Of a stretch of DNA of 64,000 nt, positions 39,110 to 61,843 are shown in pieces; position 1 is the first letter of the stretch, and the number at the start of each line of letters is the position of its first letter. The position numbers and the translations under genes are program-made. The stretch is from Polynucleobacter tropicus (GTDB lineage Bacteria > Pseudomonadota > Gammaproteobacteria > Burkholderiales > Burkholderiaceae): positions 496,001 through 560,000 of the forward strand of contig NZ_CP028942.1 of NCBI RefSeq assembly GCF_013307225.1, in the 5' to 3' direction. The notes under the pieces were generated by a model that saw only the letters and a list, made by a program, of their open reading frames with translations, was not told the DNA's origin and ran no database searches.

Positions 39110-39157
39110 GAATAGTCTTTATTAGGTTTCAGTGTTTTAGCTAAAAGATAAGAATAT

Positions 39158-40045: not shown

Positions 40046-40097
40046 ATATCTAGCAGCAATCAAAGGTTTTATGCGGAAGTATTTCTATGCTTCGGTA

Positions 40098-40493: not shown

Positions 40494-40588
40494 ATTTTTT
40501 CCTAATTTGTTGATTTTGATAAATCATATCGCATTGGAGCGCAACCACATTTTTATTTTTAAAAGCCTTAATGCACAAATATAGTGCA

Positions 40589-40921
40589 TTAATTGTCTGT
40601 ATTTTGTGGTTTAGATTTAATTGGTGTTGGGGTGGCTAGCTCGGAAAACTGGTCCTTTAGTTTACTAAGAGAGATAATTTTTGATTCTATAAGTGGTAAT
40701 TGGCGTTGCAGAGCCTGTAGTTTTTCTCGGTATGTGGCCTCAATTTCATCCAATTCTTTTCGAGTAATGACGCCACCCATCTCCTTGGTCATCTCAGGAC
40801 TGAACCGAATTGCCACTCTAAAGCCAAGAAAATGTATCCCGATGCCAATAAAGATGAAGATGCTGAACGACAAAATAGCTAGCTTAATCAAGGTCCTACC
40901 CGTGATTTTTATTTGCTTCAT
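40589..40921 (-). CDS. Single-pass membrane protein with coiled coil, unknown
   Basis: A 110-residue protein with one N-terminal membrane helix (about 9-30, LIKLAILSFSIFIFIGIGIH) and a C-terminal coiled-coil-like segment (ITRKELDEIEATYREKLQALQ). The open frame extends to 40957, but the ATG at 40921 is preceded by an AGGA site and removes a poorly structured lead. Its type II-like topology, cluster position and coiled coil suggest a membrane anchor for bactofilin filaments; that is inference. It is transcribed before bactofilin 2 on the same strand. Confidence 0.6.
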   Translation of the reverse strand: MKQIKITGRTLIKLAILSFSIFIFIGIGIHFLGFRVAIRFSPEMTKEMGGVITRKELDEIEATYREKLQALQRQLPLIESKIISLSKLKDQFSELATPTPIKSKPQNTDN

Positions 40922-41072
40922 TGTTGAAGTAGATCCTGAGATCCAGATCAGTTGCATCTGATTTTTACCTTTATTTACTAGCTAAGATTGCGGTAGTCGC
41001 AATTTTGGACATCTTTGCTTTAAAAGTAAAGTTAAGGTGCCAATTTAGGGGGATTGATCGCTATTTGATGCT

Positions 41073-41096
41073 AATATTGCGCAAAATAACAATATT
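41073..41096. promoter_or_regulatory. Inverted repeat upstream of the RodZ-like gene
   Basis: AATATTG and CAATATT, seven perfect pairs, are separated by ten bases in an AT-rich gap between two divergent genes (bactofilin-cluster membrane protein and RodZ-like protein). It may be an operator for a helix-turn-helix protein; a role is not shown. Confidence 0.35.
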
Positions 41097-41163
41097 TATA
41101 AGAAATTAGACAAATAACCCGCATCATGTTTCTTACCGCGCCACTTAACTATTAAATTTGGTT

Positions 41164-42189
41164 ATGACCCAAACTCGTTTACCTGAAATTATTGGCTCTG
41201 CACTTAAAGCTGCTAGAGAAAAGAGGGGTATGGAGCGTGGCGAGTTGGCAACGCAATGCTGCCTTTCTAGCAAAATGATTTTGGAGTTAGAGGAGGGGGG
41301 CAGCAGCTCTTTCTACAATTTTCAACTCAAACTATCTACTGCAAAGCGAGTTGGGACGTTTCTAGGTTTGGCACCTACGGATTACCTTGAGCAACCAGTT
41401 GCAATAGTTGCGACGGTTACACCTGTTTCTGAAGTGGAAAATTCGTCAGATGCAAATGATGCACAAGCTTCGCAAGACAGTGTGTCAGTCAAGGATGATG
41501 CAAAGCCCGCGGAAATCAGCGCCCCGTCTAAGACGGTTGTTGATGAGGGCGAGCAGTTGGATGATTTAATTTATGAAAGCACCCACTCAGGAACATCGCT
41601 GCCTTATATCGCTGCGCGTTCGACACCATTTGCTTTTAAGAAGCTGGGGCTTGCATTAGGCATATTGATTGTCATGGGCGCACTCTATGGCGTAGGAAAT
41701 AAATTTCAAGTTTCTAGTGCAGTCTTAGCATTCGTGGATAGTTTTGGGGCTAAGAAAGTAGAGCAGCAAGAGTCTCCTAGCGAGAGTGCATCGCAAGAAC
41801 CGCAGCAAGCGGTCGCTGAAGATGGCGTTTCTGAGAAAGCTCCGGTAAAGCCTGAATTAGTTGCTAATGCAGCACCATCCCAGATTCAATGTCCGCAAGT
41901 GCGCGATGATCAGCTGCCAATTTATAAATCTCCCAACCCATCCAAATTGGGGGATGCGGTGAATATTAAAACCTTGGTGAAGCAATCTATATGTGTTGCC
42001 GATGGTCAGGGCAGAAACACTTCGGTGGATTTAGAGCCGAATACCGCCCATTCCTTTAGAGGGGTATCGCCCTTTGTTATCTCGGCGCAAGATTTGGACA
42101 ATGTGGAAATGTATTATCAGGGTTGGAGGGTGAGACCTCCTAGTTCGGGATTGAAGCAAATGAAATTAGTCGAAGTTGCGATGCAGTGA
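41164..42189 (+). CDS. RodZ-like HTH transmembrane protein
   Basis: A 341-residue protein with an N-terminal Cro/XRE-type helix-turn-helix (about 5-70, GSALKAAREKRGMERGELA and CLSSKMILELEEG), a linker of about 90 acidic residues, one membrane helix (about 160-182) and a periplasmic C-terminal domain. The end (DLEPNTAHSFRGVSPFVIS, MYYQGWRV) resembles the DUF4115 domain of RodZ, which in E. coli links MreB to the wall machinery. The TTG at 41158 extends the frame by two codons, but the ATG at 41164 is preferred. It is followed 35 bases later by bactofilin 3. A RodZ-type anchor for bactofilin filaments is an attractive inference. Confidence 0.8.
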   Translation: MTQTRLPEIIGSALKAAREKRGMERGELATQCCLSSKMILELEEGGSSSFYNFQLKLSTAKRVGTFLGLAPTDYLEQPVAIVATVTPVSEVENSSDANDAQASQDSVSVKDDAKPAEISAPSKTVVDEGEQLDDLIYESTHSGTSLPYIAARSTPFAFKKLGLALGILIVMGALYGVGNKFQVSSAVLAFVDSFGAKKVEQQESPSESASQEPQQAVAEDGVSEKAPVKPELVANAAPSQIQCPQVRDDQLPIYKSPNPSKLGDAVNIKTLVKQSICVADGQGRNTSVDLEPNTAHSFRGVSPFVISAQDLDNVEMYYQGWRVRPPSSGLKQMKLVEVAMQ

Positions 42190-42224
42190 AGTGACTTTTC
42201 TGAAGGTATTTCGGAGGTAGCTAG

Positions 42225-42698
42225 ATGTTTGAATTCTCAAAAAAAGGCCCGATGGCCGATACGCAGTTAACTTATCAAACCACTGTTGGTACTGGGTCTT
42301 CTGTCACTGGAAACTTTACGCATCGAGGCAATATGTTGCTCTCTGGCCATCTCGTTGGAGATATCCATCAGGATGATGCTGCCCCAGATGCTGCTAATGG
42401 ATTTACTGCAGTTATTGGCAAAACGGGTTTTTTAGAGGGTGATATTCATAGCGCTCACGCCATTATCATTGGCCGCATTAACGGCTCTGTACTTGCAAAA
42501 GGCAGGGTTGAGGTTTATCCAGGTGCAGTTGTTTGTGGCGATATTACGTATACACAAATTAACGTGCATCCTGACGCTAAGGTAAATGGCAACCTCAAAT
42601 GCTTGCTTCCAGATACTTTAAATATTGCAGCGACTACAACCGAGGTCGATGATTTAGCTAGCAATGTTGTGTTGATGACAAAGGCTGAAGGCGCATAA
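42225..42698 (+). CDS. Bactofilin 3
   Basis: A 157-residue bactofilin with core repeats GTGSSVTGNFTHRGNMLLSG, GKTGFLEGDIHSAHAIIIG, and RVEVYPGAVVCGDITYTQIN. It has a short basic N-terminus (EFSKKGPM) and an acidic C-terminal tail (TTTEVDDLASNVVLM). A GGAGG site lies 7 bases before the ATG. It sits directly after the RodZ-like gene and before a small membrane protein, so the three form an operon. Confidence 0.93.
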   Translation: MFEFSKKGPMADTQLTYQTTVGTGSSVTGNFTHRGNMLLSGHLVGDIHQDDAAPDAANGFTAVIGKTGFLEGDIHSAHAIIIGRINGSVLAKGRVEVYPGAVVCGDITYTQINVHPDAKVNGNLKCLLPDTLNIAATTTEVDDLASNVVLMTKAEGA

Positions 42699-47376: not shown

Positions 47377-47556
47377 GCCCCCTAAGGCATTACTTAGGCA
47401 CCCAACCCAACACCCAATTTTCTAGAGTCTAGAATGGGCTTTAAGGCGACTCTTTAGCGCCTCCAAAACAGGAGGATTGGAAAGTTTTAAATGGCGTTTA
47501 GAGGGCTATAAACGCAGGATATCCGTATAATGACCCATTTAATGTGGGTTAGTTGC

Positions 47557-47979
47557 ATGGGCCGCTTCCTTTTCCGAAATACCACTTTTGTTGTGCTTTT
47601 TGCCACATTTGGCAGTGGTTTTGCATTGGCTCAAGTAAACGAAGATATGGTTACCGTTATTGACGGTCGCCAATACAGTGTCTCTTATTACAAAAGCTCA
47701 ATTAAATCTTTACCTCCTGACTGGAAAAAGGTTTGGATAATCACAAATCGAAAACAAGAAGCTGGCGCTGCACCCGAGCGAGTTCAATCCATCCGGCGGA
47801 ATATTTTGTTTAATTGTGTTCGTAATACGTATTCCACTTTAGCTACCGTAAATTATTCTGAGCTCAATGCAATGGGTAAACCCAATTTGCAGACTGAGAC
47901 TGGCTTCGAATTAAACGATGACCCTGTTCCGGAGGGCACTCCTATATCCATTATTTATTCACAAGTTTGCAGTTCTTAA
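47557..47979 (+). CDS. Exported protein, surface-adhesin-E-like
   Basis: A 140-residue protein with an N-terminal signal peptide (MGRFLFRNTTFVVLFA, cleaved near ALAQ). The open frame starts at 47530, but a TATAAT at 47526-47531 would lie on or past that ATG, so 47557 fits better. The mature domain has a VWIITNRKQE strand, then FNCVRNTYSTLATVNYSE and a final SIIYSQVC, a pattern like surface-adhesin protein E. It lies nine bases before the PilZ gene, so it may be part of the same unit. It resembles the protein at 44282 in its two-cysteine layout. Confidence 0.55.
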   Translation: MGRFLFRNTTFVVLFATFGSGFALAQVNEDMVTVIDGRQYSVSYYKSSIKSLPPDWKKVWIITNRKQEAGAAPERVQSIRRNILFNCVRNTYSTLATVNYSELNAMGKPNLQTETGFELNDDPVPEGTPISIIYSQVCSS

Positions 47980-47988
47980 TTTATTGAT

Positions 47989-48747
47989 ATGAGATTTAAT
48001 ATTTTTCCACCCGAGGGGCTACAAAGCATTGAGCCCAAGTTTCATGTTGATACTCGATTGATTCAAAAAACAATTGAGCGTGAATTGCATAAAAAACCAC
48101 TTGCTGGTTTGTATCCCATTGACGGTGTAGGGAGTGCAATTCCGGTAAGTCTGTTAGATGTTGCCAAGGGTTTGCTGGTGATGAAGCCTGAAACAAAGCC
48201 TGAAGGTGGCTTTACCAGTTTGATTGGCGGACAACGAATTGTGGTGATGTGCGGCGAAAGTGGCAAGATGCAGTTTTTAGCCACCAACTTGAGATTGAAT
48301 GAAGAGGGCAATCTGGTGTGCCCTATGCCAGCAGATTTAATCTTGATTCAACGTCGTAAAGAATTTAGAACTCTTGGACCTGCGGATGACGATTTAAATT
48401 TTGTCCTTTGTTTGGGTGCTGGACAAGAATTGCTCACCAAGGTCATTGATATATCGGATCATGGCATCTTGCTAGATATTCGTCTGGGGGCTACGGAAGT
48501 AGAAGTGGGGCGCTATTGGCACTCCGGCTATTTTGAGCGCCTCAGATCTCGCTCCACCACTATTGACCTAGTCATTAAAAACGTTCGCCCAGGCGCAGAC
48601 ATTGATCGTATTCGGGCTGGGTGTGAGTTATATGAGCCTAAAAAGCAAACTCTTAAAGAGTTTGAAAGCACTCGCAGCGCAATTGAAAATGCCCGCGTGC
48701 AAGGTCGCCTAAATCGTTGGTACCTTGGAGCTAGCTGGCATGAGTAA
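47989..48747 (+). CDS. YcgR-like PilZ-domain c-di-GMP receptor
   Basis: A 252-residue cytoplasmic protein with an N-terminal YcgR-N-like beta domain and a C-terminal PilZ domain. c-di-GMP contacts are RRKEFR (122-127) and DISDHG (154-159, the D/NxSxxG motif). A C-terminal extension follows (KKQTLKEFESTRSAIENA). YcgR-type proteins slow the flagellum when c-di-GMP is high. It precedes five unknown or chemotaxis-like genes and flgA, so it probably acts on this flagellar system. Weak ribosome site. Confidence 0.9.
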   Translation: MRFNIFPPEGLQSIEPKFHVDTRLIQKTIERELHKKPLAGLYPIDGVGSAIPVSLLDVAKGLLVMKPETKPEGGFTSLIGGQRIVVMCGESGKMQFLATNLRLNEEGNLVCPMPADLILIQRRKEFRTLGPADDDLNFVLCLGAGQELLTKVIDISDHGILLDIRLGATEVEVGRYWHSGYFERLRSRSTTIDLVIKNVRPGADIDRIRAGCELYEPKKQTLKEFESTRSAIENARVQGRLNRWYLGASWHE

Positions 48748-48790
48748 TTTATTTGTTCGCGAATTTGCGTAATCTCGGTTTGATATTGAT

Positions 48791-49600
48791 ATGAATTTCT
48801 TCGCGTCATTTACCACTGGAAAATTGATCATGATCGTGAGCTTGCTCATGTTCATTGCATTGATCTATTTTTTCATTCGTGATTTTTACGGAAAAGTGGT
48901 AGATGAAGTTAAGGAAAAACAAGCTAAACCAATAGAGCCAGTTGCTGTAGCAAGCCTTCAAAAAACACATCAACTTGAAGAGGTAATTAATCAAAAAATT
49001 GCCAACATGAAGTTGGATCTTATGGCAGAGCGTTTGCGCATTACTTCTACTGCTGAAGTCTTGAAGAACTTGGCGAATGAAAGGCATCTTCCTGAAACTC
49101 TGTATCAAATTTATTTTGAAACGCGTGCTTTTCCAAAAAAGAGTTTAGAGGCGCAACAGACAGATTTGGAGTGGCATGCACAAGCAGGGATCACCGATCT
49201 GAAGGTTGAGCCTATGCCGCTCGATGATGGGACTCAGATTTACTTTACCTTGCACAACTATCCATACAAGCTCACAGCAGTTAATCACCGATTTGCTAGG
49301 ACTTATTTTGTTGAGTTGACCTTACGTGATGTGGATGATGTTCGATTGTTCGTAGTTAGGGTTAAAGCGAGCGAGACGAACGGTCGCGAGATTTTGGAGA
49401 CCGCAATTATTGAAATGAAATCAGGCGATTGGATTGATGACATTGCAAGTTGCCGATTGCTGATGGATAAGCGGAAAACCGAAGTTCAGTTGATGGCTGA
49501 GCATCGTGAGGTGGAGTTATTAAAACAGCGGTTCATATTGAATCAGGGCGGCAATAAGTTTATTGCTAGCAAAGCTGATAGTGGCCTAAAGAAAAAGTAA
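48791..49600 (+). CDS. Single-pass membrane protein with coiled coil, unknown
   Basis: A 269-residue protein: one N-terminal membrane helix (about 10-29, KLIMIVSLLMFIALIYFFIR), a coiled-coil stretch (QLEEVINQKIANMKLDLMAE), and a mixed alpha/beta soluble domain (IYFTLHNYPYKLTAVNHRF, FVELTLRDVDDVRLFVVRV). No family is recognised. It lies 43 bases after the PilZ gene and 7 bases before the PDZ-protein gene. A scaffold between membrane and sensory proteins is possible, but only context supports it. Confidence 0.62.
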   Translation: MNFFASFTTGKLIMIVSLLMFIALIYFFIRDFYGKVVDEVKEKQAKPIEPVAVASLQKTHQLEEVINQKIANMKLDLMAERLRITSTAEVLKNLANERHLPETLYQIYFETRAFPKKSLEAQQTDLEWHAQAGITDLKVEPMPLDDGTQIYFTLHNYPYKLTAVNHRFARTYFVELTLRDVDDVRLFVVRVKASETNGREILETAIIEMKSGDWIDDIASCRLLMDKRKTEVQLMAEHREVELLKQRFILNQGGNKFIASKADSGLKKK

Positions 49601-49607
49601 AAATACC

Positions 49608-50636
49608 GTGTTAAAAATTCAGTTTCCTCGCACGCAAAAAGGTATTTACTTCTGGTTCTTAGCCTTTTCAAGCTTCTTGCTTTTTGTTTCTTTAGCCACT
49701 CTTTTGGCTGCGGCCGGCGAGTTGTCTAGCTCTTCTTCAGATTTAAAAAATTTGAAAGTGGTAATGCCGAATTTGGAAGAGTACGTTAGCTATCAGGCAA
49801 TTGATTTTCGGCTCAACAATACTACGCTAAATACACGTCGATTAAAGCCGAGCGATATTCCAAAGTTGGCTGATGATGCGATTGTTCCGGTTAGCTTGGA
49901 TGATGCTGTTAATCGCGCTTTCCAGTACTTCGCAGAATTTGAAAACAAGCGTTCTGGACCAATTCTTACTGTAACGCCGCCTAGCGTTGAGTCGGTGGAG
50001 TCTGGCTCTCCTGCTGATGCAGCAGGCGTAAAGCCCGGGGACCTCATTCTGTATGTTGGCTCTAATAAGATTGAGTCAGTGATGGGGTATTACCAGGCGC
50101 TAAATGAAAAGCTATCTTCAGAAATTAGCTTGAAATTGCAAAGAAATAAGCAGGGTACGATTTCGGTTGCAATGAAGAGCTTAAACCGTACCCCCATAAC
50201 TGGAGGTAATAGTGGAATTACTTTTGCAATTCCACCTGAGGCGGTTTACTTAACTGAGCAAGATAGCAAACGTATGGCCGATCAATATCGTCGCGAAATG
50301 CTTCCTGCGATCTCCGTTGATTGGCGAACTGAAGCTGCTAATAATTTGATGCAAAGTGCTAAGCGCTTGAATTTAATTTCCAAGGGTGTGGTTGATCCAA
50401 GTGGGACGTCTTCTGCCAAGATTCGCGCTAAAGACGTGCTGAATTGGCAACATAAAAAAGTTTTGGAGTCTATTGATGCTTATTTTTCACAAAGAAGAAA
50501 AATTGAGAATAAAAACGCATTCTATCTAACTGGTATGGGCGATGCGGTTGTTGGTTTTGTTTGCAGCTTGGTAATTTTCGTAATTGCTGGGGCGTTGTAT
50601 TGGTATCAACGTCGTATTGCGGGTAAAAAGTCATGA
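49608..50636 (+). CDS. Membrane protein with periplasmic PDZ domain, unknown
   Basis: A 342-residue protein with two membrane helices (about 12-37, WFLAFSSFLLFVSLATLLAA, and about 307-330, VVGFVCSLVIFVIAGALYW) and a PDZ-type domain between them (about 125-185, ESVESGSPADAAGVKPGDLI). The PDZ is therefore periplasmic. The GTG start lies 7 bases after the upstream stop. No protease motif is visible. Its stop overlaps the CheW-like gene's ATG by four bases, so expression is coupled to it. The protein may hold a periplasmic partner of the PilJ-like receptor; that is inference. Confidence 0.68.
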   Translation: MLKIQFPRTQKGIYFWFLAFSSFLLFVSLATLLAAAGELSSSSSDLKNLKVVMPNLEEYVSYQAIDFRLNNTTLNTRRLKPSDIPKLADDAIVPVSLDDAVNRAFQYFAEFENKRSGPILTVTPPSVESVESGSPADAAGVKPGDLILYVGSNKIESVMGYYQALNEKLSSEISLKLQRNKQGTISVAMKSLNRTPITGGNSGITFAIPPEAVYLTEQDSKRMADQYRREMLPAISVDWRTEAANNLMQSAKRLNLISKGVVDPSGTSSAKIRAKDVLNWQHKKVLESIDAYFSQRRKIENKNAFYLTGMGDAVVGFVCSLVIFVIAGALYWYQRRIAGKKS

Positions 50637-51040
50637 GCTCGCTAGAGAATCAAGAGTATTGGCTTGGATTGCGCATTAATGGTGAGCGCTATGCTCTGCC
50701 AGCATCCCAAGTGCATTCGGTATTTCTTTGTCCAGAGGTGGAGCAGTCGATTAAAGATTTAAAAATCAGCGGCGTTGTCGTGCATGAGGGTGAACCAGTT
50801 TATTTGCGCAATCATTTTCAATTGCTAAAGACCAGTCTTAGTTCTAATAGTGCGATGACTTGGCAACAGGTTTTAAAAAGAGATCAAGCGCCGTGGGTAG
50901 TGGTTCTGAAGGATGATGTCGATAAAGGCCTGGGTTTTCGAGTGAACAACATAGTCGGGCCTTTTCATTCATCTACATTTCCTGAGGCGGCTTTTTTGCA
51001 CTACAACGGATCAGATTTTCATTTGGTAGAGGTTCTATAA
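50633..51040 (+). CDS. CheW-like adaptor (PilI-like), degenerate
   Basis: A 135-residue CheW-like protein. The fold signs are YWLGLRINGERYALPASQVHSVF at the start, then ISGVVVHEGEPVYLRNHFQLL and PWVVVLKDDVDKGLGFRVNN. Standard CheW proteins use a similar pattern (GxxYAI, IxGVVNLRG); here the R and G positions are altered (HEGEPVYL), which suggests changed partner binding. It is coupled to the PDZ gene by four bases and precedes the PilJ-like gene, as pilI precedes pilJ in the Pil-Chp system. Confidence 0.7.
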   Translation: MSSLENQEYWLGLRINGERYALPASQVHSVFLCPEVEQSIKDLKISGVVVHEGEPVYLRNHFQLLKTSLSSNSAMTWQQVLKRDQAPWVVVLKDDVDKGLGFRVNNIVGPFHSSTFPEAAFLHYNGSDFHLVEVL

Positions 51041-51083
51041 AGTTGCCGGGTATGTCGCGAGGCCTTACAGTTAGAAATTAAAT

Positions 51084-53069
51084 ATGCGCAAAATATATAA
51101 CAATCACGTCTTTCAACGCTCAACTAAGCCTTGGCAGTGGTTAGCCACAATTTCTTTTGCCATTGCACTGCTAGCAAGCATAGGCGCATATGTAACTGCA
51201 CGCAGTTGGTTAACCGATGGGCGATATTTGCAGTCTTTGGATATTGAGCAAATAGAGGTCTTGCGTCTTATTCCCGCGCTCAAAGATTTACAGCAACAAG
51301 TAACGGGAACTCACGTACTAGATTCAGAGTTTTTTAATGGTCTAAAAAAGGCAGATCGACTGTTAAGGTCAATGACTGACGATGTCAAGCTGCCTGCTGA
51401 TAACGCTAGTTCATCTAATGTTATGACGCCTGCAAAATTGCCTGCCCCTGTTAATGGCAGCAAAAATACTGCGGCTTCAAAGAGTTCAATGGAAGAGCCA
51501 AAAGTTGTGGCAACACTTTCGGATAATCCCGCCCTGGCTTTTTTCCAAAAGCTAGATTCCAAAATTATGAAGATTGTCTTCGGTAAGCCGGATAAATATG
51601 CCGAGTTAGATAGGGAAGAGGATGCGCCCTCGACTCCTGCGGTAGTGGAACAAAAAACAACTAATGCTGTAGATATTCAGGATGTATTAATTGGCGCTAA
51701 AACCGCTGAGCAATCCATTGTGTTGGTGCTTGCCCAAGAGAAGGGTTTGGCTGGCTTGGATATATTGGCTAAATCTGCTGAGACGCTCATTTCTCCCAAG
51801 GGCCCACTTGACCTAGAAAAGATTGCTACTGATTCCCCCGCAAGAAAATATGCTGAGAGCTTGACCGAGTTCATCAAAGCGAATGCCGCTTGGCAAAAAA
51901 ATATTACTAACGCATCTGCATCAGCAGATTTGCAAAAGGCCCTAGGTGTAGTGATCGATCAAAAGGTCTTGATTGAAATCGAGGCAGGTAAGAAGACCTC
52001 GGGTAAATCTACTTTAAGCCTCACACAGGCGCTGCCTAAGGTACATCAAAGCCCTTGGCATACTAAGTTGCCGCAAGAGAGCGCCTCTGCGTTGAAGATG
52101 TATGCAAATAATATTCAGGTAGTCCGTGAATTTGCCTCAGACCATGAGGCTTTAAGGGTTGTTGCTCAGAAAAATTCAAATGGCATCCGTTTATTTGACT
52201 TTGCGGCAGCTGGCGGATTCTTGGGGTTAACTTTGGTGAGCATCGTTGCCTTAGTCTTTGCTGGATTGGGTGGGTTGATGCTATTGAAAAATAGCCGCGT
52301 TCCTGAAGTTGAGTACAAGCGTACAACAAAGCTCGCAGCTCATGCTGATGAGTTGTTGGGTTCTATTGATCTGGCGCTTAATAAATCGGGTGGTGCCAAT
52401 ACTCAGGATACAAAAACTACCACTGAGACTAAATCTAAGTCCTCAGACTCAATTAAAGAGGATATTGATCGTAGAGATTTGGCTGATGCAAGCAGGTCAG
52501 AGCTAAAAACAGTTGTTAATGTCATTACCGAACTTAGCCATGACTTGAAAGATAAAGTCATTGGTATTGAGTCACGCATGAAAGCGCTCAGCCAGCTAGG
52601 CAATAAGTTGCGTCACTCAGTAAATACTTTGCAAGATAAGAGTGCGCAGATGCGGTCAGGTTCCAATGAACAGTCTGACGGAACTTATGGATCAAGTGCA
52701 AATCCAAATCGTGGCGGCCCTCTAGAGCAATTGCAAGATGCATTCTTCGCACTCAAGCAACAAGGTGTGCGTTTGTATTTAGCGATATTGGATAACCACT
52801 CCAGTAAGCAGTTAGCAATAGAAACCGAACAACTGAATTTATTAGTTGAGCGTGTAGAAGCAACAGTTTCTAAAATGCGCACATCATTAGCGCAGGCCTT
52901 AGATCAAGCTGCTGATGCCCAGGCTTCTGCCCCTCAGGTTTCACCAGAAGTCATTGAGTTAATTAGCATGGATGCGAAGCAGGTGATGCGCGATTTAGAT
53001 TTGTGGCAAGAGGAATTTGATGGGTTAAATCGCGCTTTTGGTGATCTCAAACATGAAATCAAAGCGTGA
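51084..53069 (+). CDS. PilJ-like transmembrane receptor lacking a standard MCP signalling tip
   Basis: A 661-residue protein with two membrane helices (about 18-40 and 370-402) and a long periplasmic region between them (about 330 residues), followed by a cytoplasmic tail. This topology and its place between CheW-like and ChpA-like genes match PilJ. The cytoplasmic part is coiled-coil rich (SELKTVVNVITELSHDL, ALSQLGNKLRHSVNTLQ), but I do not see the conserved MCP hairpin tip (EIxRLAxxT / AAxExARAGExG). The periplasmic segment has long serine- and asparagine-rich linkers. It may be an integral receptor that lost kinase control, or an entirely new use. Confidence 0.6.
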   Translation: MRKIYNNHVFQRSTKPWQWLATISFAIALLASIGAYVTARSWLTDGRYLQSLDIEQIEVLRLIPALKDLQQQVTGTHVLDSEFFNGLKKADRLLRSMTDDVKLPADNASSSNVMTPAKLPAPVNGSKNTAASKSSMEEPKVVATLSDNPALAFFQKLDSKIMKIVFGKPDKYAELDREEDAPSTPAVVEQKTTNAVDIQDVLIGAKTAEQSIVLVLAQEKGLAGLDILAKSAETLISPKGPLDLEKIATDSPARKYAESLTEFIKANAAWQKNITNASASADLQKALGVVIDQKVLIEIEAGKKTSGKSTLSLTQALPKVHQSPWHTKLPQESASALKMYANNIQVVREFASDHEALRVVAQKNSNGIRLFDFAAAGGFLGLTLVSIVALVFAGLGGLMLLKNSRVPEVEYKRTTKLAAHADELLGSIDLALNKSGGANTQDTKTTTETKSKSSDSIKEDIDRRDLADASRSELKTVVNVITELSHDLKDKVIGIESRMKALSQLGNKLRHSVNTLQDKSAQMRSGSNEQSDGTYGSSANPNRGGPLEQLQDAFFALKQQGVRLYLAILDNHSSKQLAIETEQLNLLVERVEATVSKMRTSLAQALDQAADAQASAPQVSPEVIELISMDAKQVMRDLDLWQEEFDGLNRAFGDLKHEIKA

Positions 53070-53102
53070 TGATGTTAAACATCGATTAAGCACAACGTAA
53101 AC

Positions 53103-54686
53103 ATGGCTGAAGAAAAACCCTTATTTCTGATAGACGTTGATCGAGCAATCGAAGGATTGCTTTCAGCTACGCCTAAAAATGCGTCTGGCCCAATTCAGGT
53201 TGAGTCAATTGTGATGCATTGCGTTGATCTAGCCAACGCACTTGATGGAGCTGGGCTTGAAGATCTCTCTGGGTTCGCGCAAGAGCTGGCGGCGCAGTTT
53301 AAGCAAAATCAAGCACAGTCCCTACTGCTGGTAAATGACTTTATTGCATTGACAAATGCGGGGGTTACCCAAATTCACCCTGGTGAAGCAACCCACTTAG
53401 TTGTCACTGACGAGGTATTGAATGCTGCTAAAGCTAGCTTTGCCAAGAAATTAGCGCAATTAAAAGCTGGCACGCCAATTTCTTCCGAGCCTATTGCGGT
53501 AGCCAGTCAGGCTGCGCAAGTGTCGCAAGATCCTGCTGTAGTTACAACTCAAGCAAAGCCCGTCGAAGAGAGTATTGAGGATGCCTTCCCCAATCAAGAG
53601 TTTTCACCGGAACTCTTCCGTGCTTTAGAGGCTAAAAAAGAGGCGCCTGTTGATGCTGTTTCAGCACAAACTGTGGCAGAAACTCCAGAGCAAACTATAG
53701 CGCTAGCAGTTGCATCATCATCAGAGCCAATTTCTCTTGAACAAGCCCTAGAGCAAACTTTAGACCGTGCTGTGAATGAGTTAAATCATTTATTTGCACC
53801 CAGAAAAGAATCGCCTCCGGTCTTATTTACTCCGCCAGAGCCAAAGCCATTTGTATTGCCTGAAAATTTGACTAAGCCAATTGATCGCGAGAGTGCTTTT
53901 GAATACACAAGTAAGGCGCGCTACCTAGATAAGCATTACGCATTAGACCGCTCTAGCAACTTAAATCGCATGCAAAAAGCTCGAAGCTTAATTGGTAAAG
54001 GTGATAACTGGAGCGGTGTAGAGGTAGACTTTTTATTGGGTCGTGAACAAGATGAGCTAGTTCGCTCAGGCCAACAATCACTGCGCCATATCTTTGAGAA
54101 CCTCACAGATGAGTTATTGATTGATGAGGTATATGCTGATCCAGATATTGCTCAGCAGCTTTTAACGATCCTCAGCATTTTGCCGCCATGCCCGAGTATC
54201 TTTGCAGTTCAACAAGAGTTGATGATTTTTGTCGATTTGGATCATGTGACTCTGTCTAATGAGCATCTCTTGGCTGTGAGTAATATGATGGCCGAGATCG
54301 GCGGGTCACTTGAAATTCATCATGATGGTGTACGTTTATCATGCCCATCTAGTTTGCTACGCATGCCTATGGCTTTCTTTACTCGACATGGGGAGCAGTA
54401 CGCAGTCTCGGCAATACAGTATCTGGGTGAAGAGCCCCTGAGCAAAGCGGTGGATTCCAAGGTTGATTTCCTAGGGGAAATCATTCACCCGGCTCGAAAT
54501 ATTTATATTCGCGCAGGGAATCATGATTATGTGATTCATGCCCATGAGTTCTTGGGCGTTCAAAATATGAATGTGCATCAAAATCTTCCGAGATCTTTAG
54601 AGCGACCCTATTGGATGGCTGGCGTTGCTCTTGATGGTGCTAATAATGTTTATTCTTGGATAGCTTTAGACCGGTACATCAGATAA
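53103..54686 (+). CDS. ChpA/CheA-like protein without visible kinase motifs
   Basis: A 527-residue cytoplasmic protein. The N-terminal helical part (QVESIVMHCVDLANALDG, AGLEDLSGFAQELAAQF) resembles an HPt-like domain but without a histidine at the phosphorylation position. A long linker rich in A, E and Q follows. The C-terminal third has a P5/CheW-like end: GGSLEIHHDGVRLSCPSSL, AFFTRHGEQYAVSAIQYLGEE and WIALDRYIR. The N, G1 and G2 boxes of a CheA ATP-binding domain are not seen. The stop overlaps flgA's ATG (TAATG), so a CheA-derived scaffold appears fused to flagellar gene expression. Confidence 0.52.
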   Translation: MAEEKPLFLIDVDRAIEGLLSATPKNASGPIQVESIVMHCVDLANALDGAGLEDLSGFAQELAAQFKQNQAQSLLLVNDFIALTNAGVTQIHPGEATHLVVTDEVLNAAKASFAKKLAQLKAGTPISSEPIAVASQAAQVSQDPAVVTTQAKPVEESIEDAFPNQEFSPELFRALEAKKEAPVDAVSAQTVAETPEQTIALAVASSSEPISLEQALEQTLDRAVNELNHLFAPRKESPPVLFTPPEPKPFVLPENLTKPIDRESAFEYTSKARYLDKHYALDRSSNLNRMQKARSLIGKGDNWSGVEVDFLLGREQDELVRSGQQSLRHIFENLTDELLIDEVYADPDIAQQLLTILSILPPCPSIFAVQQELMIFVDLDHVTLSNEHLLAVSNMMAEIGGSLEIHHDGVRLSCPSSLLRMPMAFFTRHGEQYAVSAIQYLGEEPLSKAVDSKVDFLGEIIHPARNIYIRAGNHDYVIHAHEFLGVQNMNVHQNLPRSLERPYWMAGVALDGANNVYSWIALDRYIR

Positions 54687-55363
54687 TGCGTTTTATTGGG
54701 GTCATCATAGTTGCCTATTTATTAGGCACAAATGCTCAAGCAGCATTGACGCCTGATCTTGATAAAGAAATCACGCGTTTTATTCAATCAAGCCCCACGG
54801 TCAATGGTTTACGAGTTCAGCCAGAGTTGGTTGACCCTAATATTGTTGTGCCTGCCTGTTCAGGTGGTGCTATTGAGATCAGTACTCAGCCTGGGGCGCG
54901 TATCTGGGGTAGGACAACTCTTCAGTTGCGCTGTGCCAGGGCGGGCTGGATGGTAAATGTGCCCTTCAATATTCGGGTATTCGGTAATTATGTTGTTGCC
55001 AGCCAGTACCTTCCAGCTGGTCAAAAAATCGAGCCAAGCGATATTCGGGTAATTGATGGGGAGTTAAGTTTATTGCCTGATGATGTTCTGAGAAGTCCAA
55101 AGGGGGCTTATGACCGCATTTTGAGCCGTTCCCTGCAAATGGGTTCCCCTGTTGGGCTAAACGATTTAAAAGAATCATCCGTTATAAAAGCAGGAGATCC
55201 CGTAAGACTTGTTTTAAAAGGCAAGGATTTTGAGGTTTCTGGTGAGGGTATAGCCCAAACCGCAGGCATGATTGGCGATATGGTCCGAGTCCGTATTGCA
55301 GATGGTCAGGTCCTGCAAGGAAAGGTTTTAAGGCCGTCAGTAGTCGTAGTGACGGTTGAGTAA
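54686..55363 (+). CDS. flgA: Flagellar basal body P-ring formation protein
   Basis: A 225-residue periplasmic chaperone for FlgI P-ring assembly, with a signal peptide (ending near NAQAA). The C-terminal SAF-like and FlgA domain include VVASQYLPAGQKIEPSDIR and DRILSRSLQMGSPV, then AGDPVRLVLKGKDFEVSGEGIAQ and VRVRIADGQVLQGKVL. The frame is open to 54656, but the ATG at 54686 overlaps the upstream stop and starts the signal peptide. It is the first flagellar structural-assembly gene after the sensory-like operon. A weak hairpin (AACCCA/TGGGTT) lies between it and flgM. Confidence 0.95.
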   Translation: MRFIGVIIVAYLLGTNAQAALTPDLDKEITRFIQSSPTVNGLRVQPELVDPNIVVPACSGGAIEISTQPGARIWGRTTLQLRCARAGWMVNVPFNIRVFGNYVVASQYLPAGQKIEPSDIRVIDGELSLLPDDVLRSPKGAYDRILSRSLQMGSPVGLNDLKESSVIKAGDPVRLVLKGKDFEVSGEGIAQTAGMIGDMVRVRIADGQVLQGKVLRPSVVVVTVE

Positions 55364-55467: not shown

Positions 55468-55803
55468 ATGAAAGTAAACGAGAATGGGGCGTTAATTTCG
55501 CCAAACACAGGGGTTAATAAAGCTAACCCTGGCTCGAACTCGACTTCTGTAAACCCAAGCGCGAATAAAGTAGCAACGGATGCCGTTGCTGGTCCAGCAG
55601 TTAATTTGGATATTAGTTTGACGGCCAAGTTGGCTGAAGTGCAAAGTGACTCAAAGGCAAACAAGGTTTCCGATGAAGCTTTGATTGAGAAGCTTCGCAA
55701 TCAAGTGGCTAATGGTGAATTTAAGATCGATTACAAAAAGATCTCTCAGGCAATGCTTAAAGATGTTGTTGCCGCTATTGGACAAAAGCCAAAACAAGCC
55801 TAA
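55468..55803 (+). CDS. flgM: Anti-sigma-28 factor FlgM
   Basis: A 111-residue protein. The first 55 residues are serine- and asparagine-rich and disordered; the C-terminal half has the FlgM signature VSDEALIEKLRNQVANGEFKI followed by DYKKISQAMLKDVV. FlgM binds FliA and is exported through the completed hook-basal body to release late-gene transcription. A GAGGAG site precedes the ATG. fliA is 4.5 kb away in this window. Confidence 0.93.
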   Translation: MKVNENGALISPNTGVNKANPGSNSTSVNPSANKVATDAVAGPAVNLDISLTAKLAEVQSDSKANKVSDEALIEKLRNQVANGEFKIDYKKISQAMLKDVVAAIGQKPKQA

Positions 55804-55846: not shown

Positions 55847-56260
55847 ATGTCAGGTCAAGTCCCATCAATTTCATTTGATGGGATGCAATCTTTTTTGCAA
55901 AAGATTGCGAGTGCTGTATTAGATTTGCGTAGTGCATTGGAAGCAAACGATATGGAACGCTTGCCGAATGCATTAGATCTCACTAATGCGGCGTTAGATT
56001 CCATCAACCAATACCCTGGTGGTGCTGAGCAGCTCAAGGTTGATATTGGTCGGTTTCCAGAAGAGCAAAATCGCTCCCTTATGAGTTTACTCGATGAGGC
56101 ATCTGTTAATCACCAGATCAACGGTGATCTGATTCGCTTGGCAATGCAACGCAGTGCCGCAATGCAATCATTTATCGCACAACAAGCTCCCAGCGCAACT
56201 TATGATAGTGAGGGTGGGGTTCCCGGCTCTGTTGGTGGCGTACTTTCGCGTAAGGTCTAG
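55847..56260 (+). CDS. flgN: FlgN-family chaperone
   Basis: A 137-residue helical protein that escorts hook-associated proteins FlgK and FlgL. Family signs are the long helices (FLQKIASAVLDLRSALEAN and RSLMSLLDEASVNHQINGD), then LIRLAMQRSAAMQSFIAQQ and ATYDSEG. Its place directly after flgM, as in enteric flgMN, supports the name. It is convergent with the giant flagellin gene. Confidence 0.83.
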   Translation: MSGQVPSISFDGMQSFLQKIASAVLDLRSALEANDMERLPNALDLTNAALDSINQYPGGAEQLKVDIGRFPEEQNRSLMSLLDEASVNHQINGDLIRLAMQRSAAMQSFIAQQAPSATYDSEGGVPGSVGGVLSRKV

Positions 56261-56286: not shown

Positions 56287-59200
56287 TTATTTTGAGCCGG
56301 ACTTAATCTGCCCCCATTGTTCCATTAATAACTGCATCATCGATGGAAAATTATTTGCAGTTGCAGCCATATCAGCGGCTGCTTGCTCTGTAACTAATGC
56401 CTTAGTCAGTGTTGCAGCTCCTTGACCATAATCTTCATCAACCAAATCGGAATTTGCCTTTTGTAGATTGGTAGATTGTGAGGCCAAGTTTGTAATGCTG
56501 AATGACACGCCATTTAATTGAGACCCAATCCTTGTTCGATTGTTTGAAATCCAATTATTAGCCGAATTAACATTTGTAGTGAGGGTTGCGAAAAAGTTAT
56601 TCCATTCATCACCAGTACTAGAGGTGGATAAACCTCTGAGTGTCTGGTTAAGTGCAACGCCAACATTTCTCATGCCGGTTGCATCATTGGATACCAATTG
56701 AATTTGAGGTGCATTACTGACTTTAATAGTTGTTGATTGTGCGCTGTCGTACTGCGTAATACTTTTATTTAAATATAAAGTCATTCCACTGGTCGTATCG
56801 CTAAAGACATTTTTTGCGTTCGTGATTGATCTACCATTTAATGATAGGGAGGCATCAGAAGCAACATTAACGCCAACAACCGAGAATGTAAGGAAGCGAT
56901 TTAAATTATTTGTTGGGGCTCCCCATGCTGCGGCAAATGGGATATTAGTATTTAAGTATCCATTATTTAGTATTGAGCCTGTTGAAGAGGAAGTGGCTGA
57001 TCCAAAAAACGAAGGCGTGATACTGTAAATATGGTTGGGATTTCCAACGGTCTCATAAAGAGATACTGCCCATTCCCCATTGGTTTGCAATCCATCAGCT
57101 GCTAAAGAGACATTTCCATAATGTATGTTGCCGCCAGTTGAATTCGTGCTAGTAACCATTCTTAAGTTATTAAATGTCACCGCATTATTATTTTGTGTTC
57201 CCGCAACGCTTAAGGTCGCATAGCCACCAGCTGAGGAAATACTTGATGTCACCTTATCGCGAGAACCTACAGTTTGAGTGCCGTTTAATGTCATATAAAC
57301 AGCTGCATTTGCAGGATTGCCGCCCCAGCCTGCAGCTAAACGTAATGAGTCTCCAGTGGCATATCCTGTGCCAGCATTGTTAATGCTAATAGATGAAATG
57401 ACTCCATCGGCATCAAGAGTCAAATTTGCAGTAGCGCCAACGCCAACGCCAGATACCGTTGTCAGGGCTAAGTTGCTATAACTCGTGCTATGACTGCTAT
57501 AGCTCGCAAATGGCGAACTCAGTGATGGTGATGCCGCTCCATTTGACAGTCCTACGCTATTAATCCAAGTATTGAGATCTGCCAAAGTTGCATTAGTGGA
57601 TAGCGCTCTGCCTGGATCTGTGGTGGTGACTCCGCCAACAGTTTGCCTGCCACTTGCGTAATACGTATTTGAGCCAACGGTTAATGAAAAATTACTTGTA
57701 ACGCCTGCAGCTGTCGCTGATGTGGCATAGCCATTCAAATTAAAAGATGTTGATGCGCCTGCTGAAGCAGGGACAATATTGGTTACTGAAAAGGTTAGAT
57801 ACTGGGTTAAATCTTGATAAGGAGCGGCCCATGATGTATTAAATGGAATATTCGTATTTAAGGCGCCAGCGGCAGCGCCTGTAGAAATCAATGTTCCATT
57901 GCCAGAGTAATTTGCTGCACTATAGCTTACTCCTTCAGTGTTATTAGTGATTAACGGATTTTCTTTGATTGGTAAATTCCATTCGCTATTAGTGATGGTT
58001 CCATCTGTTGCCAGCGATACCAGCCCTTTATTAATGACGCCAGTTTGAATATCTTTGCTGGTAACCGTGTAGAGATTACTAAAAGAGACGGCATTAGCAG
58101 CGCCTGTTTGAGTACCTTTTATTTCAATTGAGTACTTTCCAGGTGCATCCTGATCAAGACAGGCTGAGACGTTATCGTTTAATTGGTTGATCCATGTGGC
58201 AAATTGGGCAGCCGTCGTATTTGTGCTTAATGCGCCGGCACTATTTGCAGAAATATCACCATTGCTATTTTGCTTACTGCCATCGGCATAGTAGGTATTT
58301 CCACCTACTTTGAATGAAAAAGTATCAGTAATTCCAACGGTATCTGTTGTGCTGGTAAGGCCGGTAAGGGAAAAATTTGTTGCTTGTGCAGTTCTATTCA
58401 CAGTGACTGCGAAATTGCCCAAAGCAGTGGCCGTAGTAGTCATTGCCGTAATCAGATCGTTATTGCTTGAATTTGCTACGGATTTATTGGAGCCGATTTG
58501 ATTGTCGCCAACGACTAGGGAGGTAACGTTTAATGGGGAGTATGCCAAATAATCTGGAGCCCCTTTGTCGCTGCCGATGGTAATATCGGGACCATTTTTA
58601 ATAACAATTGGCCGAAATATATTGGACATATTTGAGGCAATTGCTTCGGCGCTGTCGTTTGAGCCCAAAACTCCGCAAGGTGTAGTTTGTAAATTTACTG
58701 TGATTCCTAGTTGGTCATAGTTTAAGGATTGTGTAAAAACACCAGTTTTTCCTCTAGGATCTTGGACTTGCAGAGTTTGCGAGGCTAAAGTATTGCCGCT
58801 GTAATCAATTTTCGTAAGAGTAAGATTGTTGCCATTATTGCTAAAGCTGTAGACTCCCTCTCTTGCCTCGGGAGAAAAAATGCCTGTAATTACAGTTGTA
58901 TCTAATTCGCCGACATTGGTTGCATTAAGCTTAATTCCCGAGTTAGCCTGATCAAACCAACTGCTATTGCTAAACAAGCTGTGGCTGTTATAGCTTGTAT
59001 CGGCTACAGTTTTGACCATCGCCGTATATAAATCAGCAACTTGACCGGCAATAGCAAGTCTTTGGACCCCATTTAAGCTTGCGTCCATACCTTGCGTCGA
59101 TAGTTGCTCCATTTTTAGCAGCATGTCTTGCACGCTAGATAAGGCTGAATCAGCAATTTGCAGTAGATTGGTCCCATTATTCAGATTCATCAAGGACTGA

Positions 59201-59385
59201 TTGGTCGCATTAATCTGGCTGACTAAGTTTTGGGAAATCGCCAAACTGGCCGGATCATCTTGTGCTCCATTAACTCGCTTGCCTGTCGATAGGGCTTGCA
59301 CCGTTTGAGTAACGATTTTTTGTGCTTGCGATAAATTATCTTGCGCGTAATTAGACGCAATATTGTTATTAATAGACATCGTCAT
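56287..59385 (-). CDS. fliC: Very large flagellin with duplicated central domain
   Basis: A 1032-residue flagellin. The N-terminal D0/D1 (SINNNIASNYAQDNLSQAQ, ALSTGKRVNGAQDDPASLA) and C-terminal D0/D1 (NWISNNRTRIGSQLNGVSF, LTKALVTEQAAADMAATAN) are conserved, but the middle is expanded to about 800 residues. It holds a tandem duplication: NTYYADG / NTYYASG, ALSTNTTAAQFATWIN / ALSTNATLADLNTWIN, and LNTNIPFNTSWAAP / LNTNIPFAAAWGAP recur. A partial third copy begins near ASLSLNGRS. Two cysteines (TTPCGVL and SACLDQ) are unusual for flagellin. Start choices are 59403, 59385 and 59379; 59385 has a GGGA site 7 bases upstream. Confidence 0.94.
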   Translation of the reverse strand: MTMSINNNIASNYAQDNLSQAQKIVTQTVQALSTGKRVNGAQDDPASLAISQNLVSQINATNQSLMNLNNGTNLLQIADSALSSVQDMLLKMEQLSTQGMDASLNGVQRLAIAGQVADLYTAMVKTVADTSYNSHSLFSNSSWFDQANSGIKLNATNVGELDTTVITGIFSPEAREGVYSFSNNGNNLTLTKIDYSGNTLASQTLQVQDPRGKTGVFTQSLNYDQLGITVNLQTTPCGVLGSNDSAEAIASNMSNIFRPIVIKNGPDITIGSDKGAPDYLAYSPLNVTSLVVGDNQIGSNKSVANSSNNDLITAMTTTATALGNFAVTVNRTAQATNFSLTGLTSTTDTVGITDTFSFKVGGNTYYADGSKQNSNGDISANSAGALSTNTTAAQFATWINQLNDNVSACLDQDAPGKYSIEIKGTQTGAANAVSFSNLYTVTSKDIQTGVINKGLVSLATDGTITNSEWNLPIKENPLITNNTEGVSYSAANYSGNGTLISTGAAAGALNTNIPFNTSWAAPYQDLTQYLTFSVTNIVPASAGASTSFNLNGYATSATAAGVTSNFSLTVGSNTYYASGRQTVGGVTTTDPGRALSTNATLADLNTWINSVGLSNGAASPSLSSPFASYSSHSTSYSNLALTTVSGVGVGATANLTLDADGVISSISINNAGTGYATGDSLRLAAGWGGNPANAAVYMTLNGTQTVGSRDKVTSSISSAGGYATLSVAGTQNNNAVTFNNLRMVTSTNSTGGNIHYGNVSLAADGLQTNGEWAVSLYETVGNPNHIYSITPSFFGSATSSSTGSILNNGYLNTNIPFAAAWGAPTNNLNRFLTFSVVGVNVASDASLSLNGRSITNAKNVFSDTTSGMTLYLNKSITQYDSAQSTTIKVSNAPQIQLVSNDATGMRNVGVALNQTLRGLSTSSTGDEWNNFFATLTTNVNSANNWISNNRTRIGSQLNGVSFSITNLASQSTNLQKANSDLVDEDYGQGAATLTKALVTEQAAADMAATANNFPSMMQLLMEQWGQIKSGSK

Positions 59386-59432
59386 GATGTTTTCCCATAG
59401 CAAAGCTGGCTTTTCTCACATGGAAAAGCTCC

Positions 59433-60288: not shown

Positions 60289-60978
60289 CTAAATTTTGAG
60301 TTTGGCACGAATTCGAATCATGCCTTGGGTATGAATCTGGCTGATACGCCCTGGTGTGATATTCATCACTTGGGCAATTTCTCGATAAGATAAATCTTCT
60401 TGATAGTGAAGCGCAAATACTAACTGCTCGTTTTCAGGAAGGCCTTCCAAGATAGTCGCGATACGTTCAGCTAGTTGAGCCATTGCCACAGCTCTCATGG
60501 GATCTGATGAGTCGGTATCAGATGGCAAGAGGTCATCTGATAAATCATCAAGCGGCATAAGGTGAACCATATTGGCCATGATGGCATGGTAGGCCTCAAT
60601 CGACATTTCAGCGCTTGCGGCAATTTCTCTTTCGGATGGGTGGCGCCCCAAATTTTGCTCAAGCTTGCGGGTAACTTTCTCTAGTCCCTCCAGCTCATCA
60701 CGTTGATTACGCGGCAAGATATCGTTCTTACGACAAGCATCATAGATGGCTCCACGAATTCGGGTACGAGCATAGACCTCAAAGTTCAGATTGGCTTGAG
60801 GCTCATATCGAGTTAAGGCATCTAATAGTCCTGTTAAGCCCTCTTGAATTAAATCGTCGACTTCTACGTTAGGTGGTAGGCGCGAGCAGATTTGATGAGC
60901 AATACGCTTAACTAGAGGAAGATGTTCTTTGATGGCGAGATCAATGTCAATAGACTGGGTATAACTAGATGGTTTCAA
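60289..60978 (-). CDS. fliA: Flagellar sigma factor sigma-28 (FliA)
   Basis: A 229-residue sigma-70-family factor that transcribes late flagellar genes. Region 2 reads LPLVKRIAHQICSRLPPNVEVDDLIQEGLTG split in the usual place, with FEVYARTRIRGAIYDACRK; region 4 has LPENEQLVFALHYQEDLSYREI and the helix-turn-helix YREIAQVMNITPGRISQI. It starts at TTG, because a stop codon directly precedes it and no other in-frame start lies nearby. FlgM is its antagonist, encoded here too. Confidence 0.95.
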   Translation of the reverse strand: MKPSSYTQSIDIDLAIKEHLPLVKRIAHQICSRLPPNVEVDDLIQEGLTGLLDALTRYEPQANLNFEVYARTRIRGAIYDACRKNDILPRNQRDELEGLEKVTRKLEQNLGRHPSEREIAASAEMSIEAYHAIMANMVHLMPLDDLSDDLLPSDTDSSDPMRAVAMAQLAERIATILEGLPENEQLVFALHYQEDLSYREIAQVMNITPGRISQIHTQGMIRIRAKLKI

Positions 60979-61024
60979 TCACAACTCGCGCAAAAGGACA
61001 TCAATCGGAATTCAGGCAATTGTA

Positions 61025-61843
61025 TCAAGCCGTAATCTTGGCAGAAATTGCTTTAAAGAAATTATGAGGGAGAACAAATTCATGAGGGGTGCCATGTGTA
61101 ACTGGGTTAAAGCTCATGTCATCCAAATCAATTTCAACCCTTTGAGCAGTAAAGGCCTGAATCCAGCCTAAAGACTCAATATTTTGTTCTAGAGCCCTTT
61201 GCGCTGCATCTTGTAGCTTTTCAAAAGCAGCAGTTCCTGCAGCCTCATCATGGCCGCCAACAATTAATACTGAAAGCGGTTCATCAAGTTGTAATTCAGC
61301 CATCTGACGAATCATTACCATCGCTCTTTTTAAACAAGCTTCTTCAGTAGAGGCAACCAAAATGCGTTTGATATTGCTGCCAAAGTAAGCAACCAGATTG
61401 GCTTGCGGATCAATGGTAGGGAAAACAACATAATCGATATTGATTTCGTGCTTCACCAGGCGCTCATCTAACTTGGGATATTTTGCAAAGCGGCTGGTGA
61501 TCTCCTGACGCAGCTTGGCGCTCGTAGCGTACCAAAAGTTCTCATCAATCTGCTTAATGGTTCTTAATAAATCAATCGAGTTTGAAAAAACCTGGCCAAG
61601 GTCATAGCGAACGGGGTATAAAAACCCTGACATCGTTTTGCGATCGGCCAAAGGAACTTCATCAATGAGAAGGACGCTGTGACCAAGTTGTTTGATGTTA
61701 TGAGCAGTTCCGTGACCCAGGTGAATCGTAGAGTCTGGGTCTAGCGTGCTCGCAATACAAATAACGCGGCACAACTCTGAGCCAAAAATATCACGTAAAC
61801 CTGCGGCCTGATCAACGCCACTAGCAGTGCTTGCTGTATTCAT
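61025..61843 (-). CDS. flhG: FlhG/FleN-like protein without a P-loop
   Basis: A 272-residue MinD-like protein by position and end-to-end fold. FlhG sets flagellar number and antagonises FlhF. The usual KGGxGKT Walker A is replaced by ASTLDPDSTIHLGHG after RVICI, and the DADLGLAN motif by LLIDEVPLADR, so ATP binding is probably lost. The C-terminal part (RMVMIRQMAELQL-type helix, LGWIQAFTAQ) is recognisable but divergent. Start overlaps flhF's stop by four bases, keeping the flhF-flhG coupling. Confidence 0.78.
   Translation of the reverse strand: MNTASTASGVDQAAGLRDIFGSELCRVICIASTLDPDSTIHLGHGTAHNIKQLGHSVLLIDEVPLADRKTMSGFLYPVRYDLGQVFSNSIDLLRTIKQIDENFWYATSAKLRQEITSRFAKYPKLDERLVKHEINIDYVVFPTIDPQANLVAYFGSNIKRILVASTEEACLKRAMVMIRQMAELQLDEPLSVLIVGGHDEAAGTAAFEKLQDAAQRALEQNIESLGWIQAFTAQRVEIDLDDMSFNPVTHGTPHEFVLPHNFFKAISAKITA

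Follow-up and report, generated by a model that had tools for sequence, protein, structure and literature searches.

We analyzed a 64,000-nucleotide stretch of the Polynucleobacter tropicus genome (the window, G000:C1:496001-560000), which belongs to a complete genome of 2.04 Mb whose close relatives in our collection are named Polynucleobacter; positions below are those of the window. Six plus-strand open reading frames between 47989 and 54686 are separated by intergenic gaps of 43, 7, −4, 43, and 33 nt. The sixth frame runs into the flagellar gene flgA at 54686, where its stop codon and the ATG of flgA share one nucleotide (TAATG). The last three frames of this operon appear to encode altered versions of a chemosensory coupling protein, a receptor, and a kinase. 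The genes are as follows.

47989–48747, plus strand: YcgR-like PilZ protein with an intact motif for cyclic di-GMP (c-di-GMP)
48791–49600, plus strand: coiled-coil membrane protein of no known family (hereafter the cc protein)
49608–50636, plus strand: periplasmic PDZ protein with two transmembrane (TM) segments
50633–51040, plus strand: CheW-like coupling protein at the PilI position
51084–53069, plus strand: PilJ-like membrane protein, assigned from a model, fold matches, and TM prediction
53103–54686, plus strand: pseudo-CheA/ChpA (CheA-like protein), with a P1-like domain at residues 2–125, P3 at about 280–321, a lid-less P4 at 322–417, and P5 at 418–527
54686–55363, plus strand: flgA, encoding the P-ring chaperone (PF13144, E = 4.1e-22)

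The proteins encoded at 51084 and 53103 matched no Pfam family, and a sequence profile of the CheA-like protein retrieved nothing useful from the Protein Data Bank (PDB); its identity was therefore derived from fold matches and from comparison with profiles of real CheA proteins. An AlphaFold2 model, built without templates from 15 sequences (mean pLDDT 64, mostly 82–91 over residues 325–415), contains a five-helix N-terminal domain, a helix pair at residues 283–321, an alpha/beta domain, and a beta-rich, SH3-like C-terminus. The top eight Foldseek matches of this model in the PDB are all CheA, with E-values of 2.3e-8 to 3.9e-6. A second aligner placed residues 2–125 on P1 of CheA3 (Z = 11.8, 113 residues aligned) and residues 322–417 on P4 of CheA (Z = 11.4, 92 of 189 residues), while residues 274–525 align with the P3–P5 region of CheA (1b3q_B, Z = 10.4; 229 residues aligned with 3ja6_C). 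Profile comparisons placed the family on real kinases at the P4/P5 junction, with E = 7.5e-5 against two CheA proteins of related genomes and E = 3.7e-4 against four ChpA proteins; control comparisons of unrelated profiles were empty. The Pfam Hpt model was reached by one of the 15 members (E = 0.0038). As modeled, the 527-residue protein thus follows the CheA plan P1–P3–P4–P5, with a single P1-like domain.

The sequences indicate that this protein is kinase-dead. The G-boxes and the ATP lid are gone from P4, and none of the 15 members gave a match to HATPase_c. The column of the N-box Asn is occupied by Leu, Ser, Val, Ala, or Ile, but never by Asn. The position of the P1 histidine carries His in 11 members and Tyr in the other four, and the residue at +3 is Asp instead of Lys in all of them, so that the HxxKG context is absent. 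The distance from Asp346 (the N-box Asp) to Pro415 (the Pro before P5) is exactly 70 residues in all 15 members, as opposed to 134–136 residues in four real CheA/ChpA proteins. Since this length is equal at 22–30% identity across two bacterial families (described below), it points to selection rather than decay. Because the CheA-like protein meets both the CheA and the ChpA profiles, the core may descend from either a Pil-Chp or a Che system. Sequence does not favor an origin from Chp over one from Che, as the profiles of the PilJ-like and CheW-like proteins gave no significant match to real PilJ, MCP (methyl-accepting chemotaxis protein), PilI, or CheW.

The PilJ-like protein has predicted TM segments at residues 20–38 and 382–400, flanking a helical ectodomain in the topology of an MCP. 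The best fold matches of the ectodomain are two PilJ structures of Pseudomonas aeruginosa, 8wdf (Z = 11.5, 214 residues) and 7zjr (Z = 10.6, 229 residues), and other matches to this region lie near Z = 8. A fold search against viral structures retrieved long-helix matches only. Profile comparison between real PilJ and the 51084 protein revealed no sequence similarity; since the Foldseek E-value is also weak, we treat the modeled ectodomain as a structural lead to PilJ. The cytoplasmic part is modeled as a short four-helix bundle in place of the MCP hairpin. Consistently, MCPsignal is absent from the families listed for the 15 PilJ-like members, and the genome searches with this domain gave no match at the locus. 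The coupling protein is, as judged from sequence, a weak CheW: the window protein reaches PF01584 with E = 2.2e-4 and 21.3 bits (cut-off 23.5), and 10 of the 15 members match weakly. In an alignment read by eye, it carries VHEG where CheW has the NLRG receptor-binding loop. With the MCP tip absent as well, both faces of the usual receptor-coupler contact are altered.

These results largely agree with the original prediction, made from the sequence alone, which had described a single plus-strand run with small gaps and overlaps ending in flgA, the last three genes being in pilI-pilJ-chpA order without visible kinase boxes or MCP tip. The coordinates and gaps read directly, the coupler-receptor-kinase order of real clusters, and the missing HATPase_c, MCPsignal, and N-box Asn all bear this out. 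The CheA-like assignment is now backed by both fold and profile, and the CheW-like one by the weak Pfam matches, while the PilJ-like assignment is a structural lead from fold and found no support in sequence.

The operon is not confined to one genome. The CheW-like gene is present in 13 of 61 Polynucleobacter genomes and a strong flgA in 18 of 61, and in 13 of these 18 flgA directly adjoins operon genes. The operon is missing from the remaining five (G007, G014, G029, G034, and G047), in which the flagellar genes are laid out differently; flgA adjoins flgB-like genes in the three (G007, G029, and G047) where a gene-by-gene reading covered the wider region. Contig ends interrupt the locus in G052, whose contig starts inside the PilJ-like gene, and in G046, where the operon is present and the contig ends inside the CheA-like gene before flgA. 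A short subtype (G018, G036, and G049) consists of only the CheW-, PilJ-, and CheA-like genes, located beside rpoN. When 399 genomes of the order were searched with profiles, the only CheA-like proteins beyond the genus came from four genomes of a second Burkholderiales family with small genomes (f18), and the cc protein was found in the identical seven of the 399 genomes as the pseudo-CheA. No further operon was found among 369 sampled genomes of the class.

In family f18, the operon occurs in five genomes, with its genes distributed between two contigs in G464. A further locus, in G462, is cut by a contig end and shows flgA-flgM-flgN with the same neighbors. The gene order cc-PDZ-CheW-PilJ-CheA-flgA-flgM-flgN is the same as in Polynucleobacter, although protein identity between the families is only about 14–34% (22–30% for the CheA-like protein). 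Both families also share a convergent fliA-flhG-flhF-flhA block, which is retained at almost every operon locus whose sequence extends far enough. Five other genomes of f18 (G205, G302, G332, G361, and G465) have flgA in the other layout and lack the operon. In both families, therefore, the operon lies only beside one of two flagellar types and is absent beside the other. The recurrence of the same order in two families shows that the block is not a product of chance.

The three genes preceding the core are conserved to different extents. The PilZ match of the 47989 protein in Pfam is weak (E = 0.008, below the cut-off), and its best PDB profile matches are YcgR (E = 0.004). Its c-di-GMP motif (R123-x3-R127 and D154-x-S-x-x-G159) has invariant Arg, Asp, and Gly residues, and Ser156 is present in at least 90% of the alignment. 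The gene is missing in the short subtype, and an unrelated gene takes its place in f18; the first upstream gene there had been suspected to encode PilZ and proved to be unrelated. In G054, a GGDEF-EAL gene is inserted within the operon between the PilZ and cc genes (L052:9939-11174), a further hint of a link to c-di-GMP, and G010 carries a second PilZ copy right after flgN (L044:12306-13130). The cc protein, among the most conserved of the run, comprises one N-terminal TM segment, a coiled coil, and a conserved C-terminal domain; no known family was found for it. By the positive-inside rule, its bulk is probably cytoplasmic. The PDZ protein (PDZ_6, E = 8.6e-9; TM segments at residues 17–35 and 313–331) matches the PDZ domains of site-2 proteases and DegQ in profile comparisons with E-values down to 1e-17. 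No protease domain was detected in it, since its Pfam match is PDZ only and the best PDB profile stretches cover PDZ as well.

Among the products of the downstream flagellar cluster are basal-body, hook, export, and switch proteins, MotA, MotB, and a histidine kinase with a sigma-54 regulator. CheY phosphate binds to FliM at an N-terminal peptide, L[ST]xxExxxL. This peptide is found in none of 15 operon-type FliM proteins, whereas all 10 FliM proteins of the other type, from the same two families, retain it (Fisher p = 3e-7, for sequences that are related). In the FliM tree, the operon type forms one clade across both families, with support of 100/100 and long branches. Accordingly, the peptide may have been lost in a single event, yet its absence has been kept throughout, including in G426. 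Of 17 operon genomes searched, 14 gave no canonical MCP and 16 no canonical CheW domain, as judged by Pfam MCPsignal and CheW searches only (PF02895 was not run). In most of them, no canonical MCP, CheW, or CheA was thus detectable. The sensitivity of such searches is limited, a point illustrated by the 459-aa CheW-like protein of the window genome.

Some operon genomes contain further chemosensory genes. In G426, a near relative, an intact MCP-CheA-CheW-CheB-CheR cluster lies near flhA (L082:7304-13931), and its FliM, identical to that of the window genome, is without the usual CheY-docking peptide. In the window genome, cheR, cheB, one canonical MCP, and the 459-aa CheW-like protein lie together at G000:C1:1637000-1656000. 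No CheA was seen in this 19-kb stretch, and the CheW-domain search found no CheA P5; this second cluster may itself be without a kinase.

The composition of the operon, its degeneration and conservation, its flagellar linkage, and the loss of the FliM docking site suggest a kinase-dead Che/Chp core complex that is kept as a phosphorylation-free scaffold or allosteric sensor for one flagellum uncoupled from CheY. We assign this reading a probability of roughly 0.55. The original prediction had likewise proposed a chemosensory scaffold recruited to flagellar control or placement, to be checked by synteny across relatives and co-occurrence with flagellar genes. Synteny extends through Polynucleobacter into the second family, the operon goes with one flagellar type, and the central guess holds; it may have been recruited to flagellar control, and a part in placement is more speculative. 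We infer the three-protein complex, the sensing by the ectodomain, the mechanism of output, and the motor as its target along the following lines. The receptor, the CheW-like coupler, and a CheA-like dimer would form an inner-membrane complex next to the flagellum. A state of the periplasm or envelope would be sensed by the PilJ-like ectodomain, perhaps together with the PDZ protein, and the short helical bundle would relay the signal to the CheW/pseudo-CheA assembly and to the cc protein on the inner membrane. Contact between proteins, instead of CheY phosphate, could then carry the output to the motor or to its assembly, and in most genomes the c-di-GMP-binding YcgR-like protein may tune this output. 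In a bolder version, a complete array would have replaced CheY as the motor input: receptor, coupler, and pseudokinase would act on the motor through direct contact, and c-di-GMP would serve as a co-input. This version is tentative and, in our estimate, less probable than its negation.

Several observations weigh against a phosphorylation-free sensor of this kind. The match of the receptor-like ectodomain to PilJ is fold-only (Foldseek E = 0.25, hhalign probability below 1%), Z-scores below about 13 may be incidental in helical proteins, and the mean pLDDT values are 61 for the PilJ-like model and only 64 for the CheA-like one. The CheW-like protein falls under the Pfam cut-off and is without a profile match in the PDB, and the PilZ gene is not in every locus. 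Canonical MCPs are present in three operon genomes (G000, G400, and G426), with a full che cluster by the flagellar genes in G426; phosphorylation signaling may therefore coexist with the operon in these genomes. Finally, CheY could act on the motor via FliN or other contacts.

Two rival roles, one passive and structural, the other in polar assembly, account for the observations nearly as well. The membrane and pseudo-chemosensory proteins could build a ring, a collar, or a polar anchor at the flagellar base without any sensing, as the constant association with the P-ring and further flagellar genes, the uniform P4 length of a kinase-dead protein, and a single periplasmic PDZ without a protease would lead one to expect; pilus proteins exapted into a flagellar motor provide a precedent (PMC11870540). 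The receptor-like ectodomain and the c-di-GMP effector encoded in most genomes nevertheless suggest an input, and no PilM, PilN, or PilO relative was identified in the operon. Moreover, the short subtype drops the PDZ and cc proteins and keeps only the CheW-, PilJ-, and CheA-like genes, indicating that the genes are not an indivisible structural set. We consider this role rather unlikely. A complex that marks the pole and determines where and when the flagellum is built, via FlhF/FlhG or FlgM/FlgN/FlgA, instead of how it rotates is likewise an unlikely but serious candidate. Its neighbors are flhF, the gene at the flhG position, fliA, flgM, and flgN. In P. aeruginosa, the Chp-linked protein FimL, which is unlikely to perform canonical phosphotransfer, localizes to the pole (PMC3019171, PMC12632253). 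Such a neighborhood by itself cannot separate assembly from function, however, and the loss of the CheY peptide from FliM in the same clade points to the control of rotation. Very improbable is the reading of the operon as a decaying remnant of a chemotaxis or Pil-Chp system whose function was lost in streamlined genomes. The genomes are small and the kinase boxes and MCP tip are gone, but decay would not produce frames that stay intact across two families at such low identity, a P4 deletion of identical length everywhere, and a preserved gene order and flagellar linkage.

Known systems share single features with the operon. The Pil-Chp system of P. aeruginosa and many Burkholderiales has the same coupler-receptor-kinase order, a PilJ ectodomain tentatively resembled here by fold, and CheA-type P1, P3, P4, and P5 modules. 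Unlike it, the operon has no PilG or PilH in the run or its flanks, lacks a C-terminal receiver, an ATP lid, and an MCP tip, has one P1-like domain in place of many Xpt domains, and is linked to flagellar genes; real Burkholderiales ChpA proteins are 1800–2250 aa long and retain their G2 boxes. The Che core unit (MCP-CheW-CheA) is comparable in the CheA fold that extends over nearly the whole protein, in the CheW-like coupler, and in the two-TM receptor, but the operon is without a kinase or an MCP-tip hairpin, and its FliM is without the CheY-docking peptide. Pil-Chp and Che thus have these parts in common with the operon, while the loss of the kinase is found in neither (reviewed in PMC12632253). 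FimL, with Gln at the phosphoacceptor sites, shows that a Chp-linked protein can do without a phosphoacceptor (PMC3019171). Like the pseudokinase DivL, it is a degenerate phosphorelay protein that serves as a scaffold and keeps its fold without normal catalysis; here, by contrast, a whole receptor-coupler-kinase set is degenerate together and in a flagellar operon. In the motors of Campylobacterota, pilus components have been exapted into flagella (PMC11870540). That cage (FcpMNO, exapted PilMNO) similarly represents the recruitment of type IV pilus-linked proteins, but it is made of different proteins and has a structural function, being derived from the pilus alignment complex rather than from a chemosensory core. 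The YcgR/FlgZ flagellar brake resembles the PilZ protein in its two-part architecture, its c-di-GMP motif, and its proximity to flagellar genes, whereas the operon protein scores far below the YcgR cut-off (17.9 of 400 bits in NCBIfam) and is embedded in a pseudo-Che operon.

We found no description of this operon in the open-licence literature, including papers on Polynucleobacter flagella. Chemosensory systems are defined by their kinase, and here all three core parts persist without one in two families. If the proposed sensor or scaffold is correct, the scaffold role of arrays has been separated from phosphorylation, and the operon would offer a natural system for asking what arrays do without a kinase. 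In the bolder version, it would add a further means of steering a flagellum to CheY phosphate and simple c-di-GMP braking. The operon may also follow the Campylobacterota cage as a second example of a flagellum taking over pilus-linked machinery.

The features surrounding the operon are listed below.

47530–47979, plus strand: small secreted Adhesin_E-like gene (PF16747, E = 2.4e-9)
55468–55803, plus strand: flgM, encoding the anti-sigma-28 factor (PF04316, E = 1.5e-7)
55847–56260, plus strand: flgN (PF05130, E = 3e-5)
60289–63486, minus strand: fliA, the gene at the flhG position (61025–61843), and flhF (FliA, E = 2e-66; FlhF, E = 1.6e-70)
63522 onward, after flhF: flhA, a member of the convergent flagellar block

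The gene at the flhG position has no family match. The Adhesin_E-like gene ends 9 nt before 47989 and is kept at that place in several relatives; because of this closeness and conservation, the operon may begin at 47530. Promoter scans were uninformative: a scan for the sigma-28 consensus gave matches at about the shuffled level, and a scan for sigma-54 gave 61 sites where 46 were expected, the best one near the operon start falling within the 47530 gene. The interval between flgN and fliA holds a very large flagellin-like protein of 1038 aa on the minus strand (56287–59403), and flagellin-like genes of different sizes lie near the corresponding cluster in relatives. Several small genes that appear bactofilin-like by eye are located by the flagellar region, at 38660–42698 in the window and also at L097:14227-15524.

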